64,000 nucleotides of DNA. It comes from an uncultured Fretibacterium sp. (lineage in GTDB: Bacteria > Synergistota > Synergistia > Synergistales > Aminobacteriaceae). Position numbers and translations under genes: made by a program. This document shows, piece by piece, positions 12,916 through 13,918 of this stretch. Positions within the stretch are counted from its first letter, which is position 1. Each line of letters opens with the position of its first letter. The DNA lies in NCBI GenBank assembly GCA_947168585.1, contig CAMVMK010000001.1, positions 1 through 64,000 on the forward strand, read 5' to 3'. The notes under the pieces are model-generated. The model did not search any database. It was given only the letters and a program-made list of their open reading frames with translations, and had not been told where the DNA came from.

Positions 12916-13077
12916 GGTGAGGGGTTAGGGGTGAGAGATTTTTCACGCGCGTAGTTTTCTAAATAAAAATAAAATTTTAGGCACGCGCAAAGGCTTTTTA
13001 TTTTAAGGGTGAGGGGTTAGGAGTGAGTGGTGAGGGGTGTTTTTTAATTCCTAACTCCTCATTCCTAACTCCTAACT
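12916..13077. repeat. Large heptamer-type repeat block with a CACGCGC module and inverted arms
   Basis: Three parts: GGTGAGGGGTTAGGGGTGAG (12916-12935); a module with two direct CACGCGC copies around an AT-rich core (about 12941-12990); then GTGAGGGGTTAGGAGTGAG (13008-13026) facing inverted copies CTAACTCCTCATTCCTAACT (about 13052-13071). The facing arms can fold and may end transcription of the binding-protein gene, whose stop abuts the block. Confidence 0.75.
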
Positions 13078-13873
13078 ATTTCTTATAGTCTTTAGTGAGA
13101 ATAACGCCGACTTGTTTAGCGTCTTCGTAAGGGTCAGAAAAATCCGTAAATAATTTTCTTTCTTCGTTGACGGTAATACCTGCGCATATCATGTCAACTT
13201 TGCCGCTGTTCACAGCCATAAACAAAGAGTCAAAAGGATAAGCAATAATTTCAAGTTCCATATCTAATTTACCGGCGATTAAAGCGCACATTTCAATATC
13301 TATGCCGGTGTAACCGTCTCCGACTTTAATATCATAAGGAGGGAAGCCTGACTCAGTTCCTAAATATAATTTTCCGCCTTTTGCGCCCTTATGTAAATCA
13401 ATGTCTTCGGGCTTGGCCGCTGTAGGGTCTTCTTTATATTTAAGCATAATTTTTTCGAGAGAACCGTCAGCTTTAATTTCAGCGAGGGCTTTGTTGACTT
13501 TCTCTAATAATTCTTTGTTGCCCTGCTTGAAACCTATTGCGTACTGTTCGACAGTGAGGGGCTCGGGTAAAATCGTTAAAATTTCGGGGTCGTTCTTATG
13601 AAATTGAACTGCCGGAGCTTCGTCCATGATTGCACATTCGATTTTGCCGACCTTGAGAGCCTGAATAACGTCCGTAGCTTTTTCGTAAGTTACAAGCTGC
13701 TCTTTAGCTTTGTCTTTGAGCATATCTTTAGCAAGTCCCTCAGCGATAGTGCCTCTTTGAGTTCCGACTTTATAATTTACAAAATCGCCGGGCTTGGAAA
13801 TGTTCAAACCGTCAGCAAATGCTAAACCTGCGCTTAATGCCGTGATGATTATTGCTGCAAAAATTTTTTTCAT
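13076..13873 (-). CDS. Amino-acid ABC transporter binding protein of the SBP_bac_3 family, circularly permuted
   Basis: Periplasmic solute-binding protein; Sec signal peptide MKKIFAAIII...GLAFA (residues 1-20). The mature order is unusual. Residues about 35-147 match the part that normally comes second (KVGTQRGT, then AIMDEAPAV, then LLEKVNKALAEIKADGSLEKI). After a linker (148-167), residues 168-262 match the part that normally comes first (LYLGTESGFPPYDI, GIDIEMCALIAGKL, then ITVNEERKLFTDFSDPY). The ligand-carboxylate Arg (ITVNEER) and the lobe-2 Asp (AIMDE) are both present. The ATG at 13873 has AGGAG 9 bp upstream and is preferred to TTG 13894. No permease or ATPase gene is adjacent. Confidence 0.85.
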   Translation of the reverse strand: MKKIFAAIIITALSAGLAFADGLNISKPGDFVNYKVGTQRGTIAEGLAKDMLKDKAKEQLVTYEKATDVIQALKVGKIECAIMDEAPAVQFHKNDPEILTILPEPLTVEQYAIGFKQGNKELLEKVNKALAEIKADGSLEKIMLKYKEDPTAAKPEDIDLHKGAKGGKLYLGTESGFPPYDIKVGDGYTGIDIEMCALIAGKLDMELEIIAYPFDSLFMAVNSGKVDMICAGITVNEERKLFTDFSDPYEDAKQVGVILTKDYKK

Positions 13874-13918
13874 GATTTTTTTCTCCTGTTTCAAAAATTT
13901 TTTTAATTCACGAAATAT

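Follow-up and report, generated by a model that had tools for sequence, protein, structure and literature searches.

A naturally circularly permuted SBP_bac_3 amino-acid binding protein and its permuted relatives in Synergistota

The window analyzed here, a stretch of 64,000 nucleotides from an uncultured Fretibacterium sp., contains on its minus strand a gene for a solute-binding protein (SBP) in which the two halves of the SBP_bac_3 family appear in reversed order. The frame is intact, from an ATG that starts at 13873 to a stop codon at 13076–13078, and the locus comprises the following features:

13076–13873, minus strand: permuted SBP_bac_3 gene, 265 amino acids plus stop (intact frame, phmmer, Pfam)
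13883–13887, minus strand: Shine-Dalgarno-like AGGAG, 9 nt 5' of the ATG at 13873 (read from the sequence)
13814–13873, minus strand: putative signal peptide MKKIFAAIIITALSAGLAFA, residues 1–20 (predicted by eye; helix 2–18 in the model)
13436–13789, minus strand: canonical C-half, now first, residues 29–146, equivalent to AncQR 113–230 (phmmer, 61.5 bits)
13622–13624, minus strand: codon of D84, equivalent of the lobe-2 ligand Asp (alignment to AncQR; invariant in 74 homologues)
13379–13435, minus strand: new linker, residues 147–165 (conservation in homologues; AlphaFold2 pLDDT about 90–98)
13088–13378, minus strand: canonical N-half, now last, residues 166–262 (phmmer, 68.7 bits, residues 166–258 equivalent to AncQR 9–102; Pfam, residues 171–262)
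13157–13174, minus strand: codons of T234–R239 (TVNEER), which include the equivalents of T70 and R75 (alignment; R239 invariant in 74 homologues)

Promoter-like sites show no excess over chance. That the gene is the tail of a truncated tandem gene was considered and rejected because it has a full 265-residue frame with its own start, a Shine-Dalgarno-like site and a signal peptide, conserved in the orthologues.

In canonical SBP_bac_3 proteins, the N-half precedes the C-half; in the protein encoded at 13076–13873, this order is reversed. The two phmmer alignments with AncQR (4zv1), obtained in a search against PDB sequences, come in swapped order, with the C-half (lobe 2 and the return to lobe 1) first and the N-half (lobe 1 and the first hinge strand) last, exactly the arrangement that had been read from the sequence originally. 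When the halves are put back in the canonical order, they align with AncQR as one stretch (positions 4–226 to 10–230; 138.4 bits, E = 2.5e-39), so the swapped order is not a chance effect. Pfam likewise matches SBP_bac_3 (PF00497) to the protein in two out-of-order stretches, at 108 bits compared with a cut-off of 26.4; all Pfam matches are of the PF00497 type or other Type II-like families, with no Peripla_BP family that would indicate Type I/cluster B. Taken together, these comparisons confirm the proposed circular permutation and identify a secreted SBP_bac_3 (Type II, cluster F) amino-acid binding protein.

The source genome assembly is fragmented (110 contigs), which leaves room for the reading that the permuted order is an assembly or binning artefact or belongs to a pseudogene produced by local rearrangement. 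This is extremely improbable: the frame is intact and its residues are strongly conserved, and assembly error is refuted by independent genomes that carry the same order. Orthologues with 76–94% identity are present in 32 other public MAGs (rumen Synergistaceae/Fretibacterium), on contigs of up to 597 kb. The window protein used as a query (E ≤ 1e-28) has matches in 50 of the 188 Synergistota genomes searched, all of one family, and these include a single-contig genome of 2,728,333 bases in which the order is again the same. A local assembly rearrangement, the danger named in the original prediction, is thus ruled out by at least 32 other genomes.

The genuine permutation entails a new connection between the old chain ends. 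A linker of about 18 (16–20) residues joins the old C-terminal helix KADGSLEKIMLKY to the old N-terminal strand GKLYLGTESGFPPY, close to the 20 or so residues that had been claimed. Among the 74 homologues, it has the consensus xKPEDIDxNxGAK, with P155 kept in 69, I158 and D159 each in 73, and A164 in 69–73. The cut that created the new ends is near the hinge between the lobes, as originally thought, and not exactly at it: in the model, the ends lie in a surface loop just past the first hinge-crossing strand (model strand 250–259), slightly inside lobe 2.

The fold is predicted to be the usual two-lobed Type II clamp. AlphaFold2, supplied with the 74 homologues, all of them in the permuted order, yields a monomer model with pLDDT of 91.5 and pTM of 0.82, in which the linker region (blocks 141–180) has block-mean pLDDT of 87–98; from the single sequence, pLDDT is 38.6 and there is no usable model. 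The expectation that the rearranged chain can fold is borne out to this extent, and the non-SBP fold that would have told against the permutation is not predicted. Foldseek, in a sequential and hence order-dependent alignment, matches the model to SBPs at E of about 1e-7, with TM of 0.3–0.53 and rmsd of 5–20 Å; such low values are to be expected if the chain order differs from that of canonical SBPs and are in themselves no proof of a permutant. The best sequential TM values (0.50–0.53) are those of the OpuAC-type glycine-betaine binding proteins, a different family with a different ligand and 15–16% identity to the protein. Bacillus subtilis OpuAC itself is reportedly domain-swapped in sequence relative to ProX, of which the limited OpuAC literature searched makes no mention.

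The ligand site survives the reordering. In the alignment to AncQR, T234 and R239 correspond to T70 and R75, F177 and F214 to F12 and F50, and D84 to the lobe-2 ligand Asp. In agreement with the claim that key ligand residues are kept, all of these are invariant or nearly so, R239, D84 and F177 in 74 of the 74 homologues, F214 in 73 and T234 in 61. In GlnH and HisJ, such residues hold the alpha-amino and carboxylate groups of the ligand, and the retention of this Thr/Arg/Asp-type site therefore makes an amino acid the likely ligand. The most likely role of the protein is that of an orphan SBP for a polar amino acid.

The permuted order is general in the lineage of this gene, and the group to which the gene belongs is large. 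A scan of the source assembly found about 20 further permuted genes, each coding for about 200–320 amino acids and arranged in clusters of one to four, and seven canonical SBPs, one on C4 and six in tandem on C11. The six tandem canonical SBPs (L060:1803–6956) share an insertion, TDSNVPxxNKxxFYAEGYD, and have apparent uncleaved N-terminal anchors.

One of the permuted paralogues, on C10, is 55% identical to the window protein and is encoded 5' of a HisM/GlnP-like permease and a GlnQ-like ATPase, together a complete importer cassette. The same SBP-permease-ATPase operon occurs in five other genomes, at every locus for which the flanks were read. Among the Synergistota genomes searched, orthologues of the C10 permease are nearly confined to those with a permuted SBP, so no swap from canonical to permuted is seen at an orthologous operon; in G154, from another Synergistales family, a 46% identical permease adjoins a canonical SBP. 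Neither the window gene nor its orthologues have beside them a permease or ATPase that resembles those of the paralogue; the protein possibly shares the C10 permease and ATPase, in the manner of ArgT and HisJ with HisQMP. The orphan locus, with no adjoining permease or ATPase across orthologous loci, and the persistence of a window-like gene without a C10 permease orthologue in one single-contig genome (G039) are also compatible with a role outside transport, as an orphan sensor or scavenger such as a chemoreceptor partner. We regard such a role as unlikely, given the full importer operon of the 55% identical paralogue, the co-occurrence of the C10-type permease with a window-type gene (35 of the 39 genomes with such a gene), and the fact that orphan SBPs sharing a permease are common. 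Delivery to a shared importer is accordingly the reading we prefer.

More diverged permuted SBPs, which we denote group 2, number at least 13 per genome in the genus of the window (approximate counts, being based on MAGs) and align collinearly with group 1 through the linker (99.8%, E = 2e-28 in a profile comparison). On C2 and in Bacillota, group 2 members share operons with genes for a permease and an ATPase. In these proteins (L072, L062, L055 and others), the ligand Asp and the AGxTITEER motif are apparently lost, with LPExVAEY and WYR/WFx in their stead, and yet these proteins are the most multiplied. Their ligand is probably something other than a simple amino acid. The ATPases of the group 2 operons (L062:303–1412, L255:5392–6486, L250:2576–3538 and L055:9758–10870) carry a C-terminal extension of about 120–130 amino acids that looks anti-sigma HATPase-like by eye, Pfam reporting only ABC_tran and other P-loop families, and in L062 an RsbU/PP2C-like protein of 829 amino acids adjoins the operon.

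Permuted units are also built into transporters. In 30 of the 43 genomes of the window's genus, SBP units are fused to a permease, and the source genome carries such fusions. When the chains are read with half-domain profiles built from canonical proteins only, every complete array consists of the C-N pair repeated n times (n = 2–12), followed by the membrane domain; in a few arrays, the first C-half was taken from the presence of 100–190 amino acids ahead of the first detected N-half, and single sub-threshold halves inside an array (L212) were assigned likewise. The same profiles read the canonical single fusions L258–L260 as N-C and the fusion L272 as N-C-N-C, which demonstrates that the method tells the two phases apart. 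The longest chain (L204:858–10607, in G055) has 3249 amino acids, with 12 SBP_bac_3 matches and one BPD_transp_1, far more binding domains than in GlnPQ-type transporters; a short form with two units has 787 amino acids.

Within the arrays, the C-to-N linkers are mostly 15–24 amino acids long and conserved (DESKK..DY..LPAPNG), and the N-to-C spacers are variable, 13–57 residues, mostly rich in Pro, Ala and Ser. The identity between the C-halves of two units predicts that between the following N-halves (r = 0.81) far better than that between the preceding ones (r = 0.34; bootstrap 95% range of the difference, 0.37–0.54), so that the arrays evolve in units of one permuted C-N pair. Pfam and NCBIfam parse the arrays (L200, L204) as N(i)-C(i+1) domains, which masks the permuted phase, and give the single permuted genes two half matches. 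As far as order alone is concerned, the pairing seen by Pfam would be permitted in arrays, and a single permuted chain might work as a domain-swapped dimer in which the C-half pairs with the N-half of another chain and the linker is a mere tether. This arrangement appears very unlikely: the monomer model has a pTM of 0.82 and an ordered linker, it is the C-N linker that is constant and conserved while the N-C spacers vary, the C and N of one unit evolve together, and arrays paired in that way would keep an unpaired first C-half and last N-half. The C-N unit closing on itself is the arrangement that we retain.

Comparison with known systems puts these proteins in perspective. With the canonical SBP_bac_3 proteins (GlnH, ArtJ, HisJ and AncQR), the window protein shares homology of both halves (each at E < 1e-14), the equivalents of T70, R75 and the lobe-2 Asp, and the signal peptide; it differs in the reversed halves, the chain ends past the first hinge strand and the conserved linker that joins the old ends. 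The only solved natural permutant found in the literature searched is the glucose-binding protein Tp0684/TpMglB-2 of Treponema pallidum, a Type I protein for which the designation 'Type Ic' was proposed and whose topology the authors found in many other bacteria (PMC4990184). It binds its ligand and changes conformation, so a permuted ligand-binding protein of an ABC system can do both (PMC4990184). The two cases are alike in being natural circular permutations and differ in class, TpMglB-2 being a sugar binder of Type I/cluster B and the window protein a member of Type II/cluster F. They differ in extent as well: in TpMglB-2, only the first three N-lobe strands are relocated, there is an additional, fourth crossing of the hinge, and the sequence match in the relocated part is weak (PMC4990184), whereas in the window protein and its relatives, whole halves are exchanged and arrays are formed. 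For SBP_bac_3 or Type II proteins, no prior report of a natural permutation was found in the literature searched, whose coverage leaves out most subscription journals. The permuted Type II SBPs are thus a widespread and, apparently, unreported group, and by analogy, the class could be named 'Type IIc'.

The closest precedent for the fused arrays is GlnPQ of Lactococcus lactis, in which tandem SBD1 and SBD2 are fused to the permease (6h30; PMC8025302). Its order is N-C-N-C-permease, as in L272, in contrast to the C-N-...-C-N-permease of the Synergistaceae arrays, which have up to 12 units; there, a C-half opens the chain and the half that precedes BPD_transp_1 is an N-half. Over 229 residues, phmmer aligns the window protein collinearly with the SBD1 C-half plus the SBD2 N-half of 6h30. 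This is what duplication and trimming would leave, and the collinearity supports that route, as does the existence of tandem transporters of both kinds, canonical and permuted. It is plausible that a tandem duplication whose outer halves were then lost gave the permuted order.

The order of the halves was surveyed in Synergistota and Bacillota genomes, and in the latter, permuted SBPs are sporadic. They include the lipoproteins L268 and L269, with an ATPase or permease gene downstream, and a fused C-N-C-N-permease (L270); group 2 is also represented in a Selenomonadaceae MAG and in G232, G496 and G550. One Bacillota protein (L273:1438–2295, in G411), with permease and ATPase genes downstream, has a different permutation, with C-half 70–115 followed by the N-half and then by C-half 5–60; no second example of this cut was found in 348 genomes. 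A tree built on re-ordered halves unites group 2, the arrays and the Bacillota array (95*). Within the first set of proteins, a single origin is not rejected (p-AU 0.60). Once the Bacillota singles are added, a single origin of all C-N proteins is rejected (p-AU 0.023), so that the C-N order probably arose more than once; when L262 is removed, a single origin is not rejected (p-AU 0.18), and the deep branches are weak.

The account that we consider highly probable is that of a naturally permuted Type II amino-acid clamp, an orphan that probably feeds an ABC importer and owes its order to loss from a tandem SBD protein. After export, the protein would fold into the usual two-lobed clamp; the new chain ends would lie in a lobe-2 loop past the first hinge strand, and the ordered, conserved linker would connect the old ends. 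Using the retained Thr/Arg/Asp site, the clamp would close around a polar amino acid, and the orphan SBP would deliver it to an ABC importer for amino acids, probably the permease and ATPase of HisM/GlnQ type encoded beside the 55% identical paralogue. A tandem SBD protein of GlnPQ type that lost part of its chain is the probable source of the permuted order, which would then have been inherited by the many paralogues and by the fused (C-N)n-permease transporters.

More broadly, it seems likely, with somewhat less assurance, that the permuted Type II SBPs are an overlooked subclass in which the same permutation has more than one origin, another cut lies elsewhere, and the permuted unit builds giant importers with up to 12 binding domains per chain. 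The subclass is hidden in annotation because domain profiles match each half on its own and give the arrays a shifted phase, and the permuted SBPs thereby expose a blind spot of domain annotation. Engineers build permuted binding proteins for use in sensors, and reports of natural ones are rare. The amino-acid SBPs of the most studied class now provide a natural series, namely, canonical single proteins, canonical tandem fusions, permuted single proteins, permuted arrays and a second cut, with which the duplication-and-trim route to permutation can be tested directly. The series also raises the questions of how one permease works with many permuted SBDs per chain and whether docking is altered when the anchored N-terminus lies on lobe 2 instead of lobe 1.
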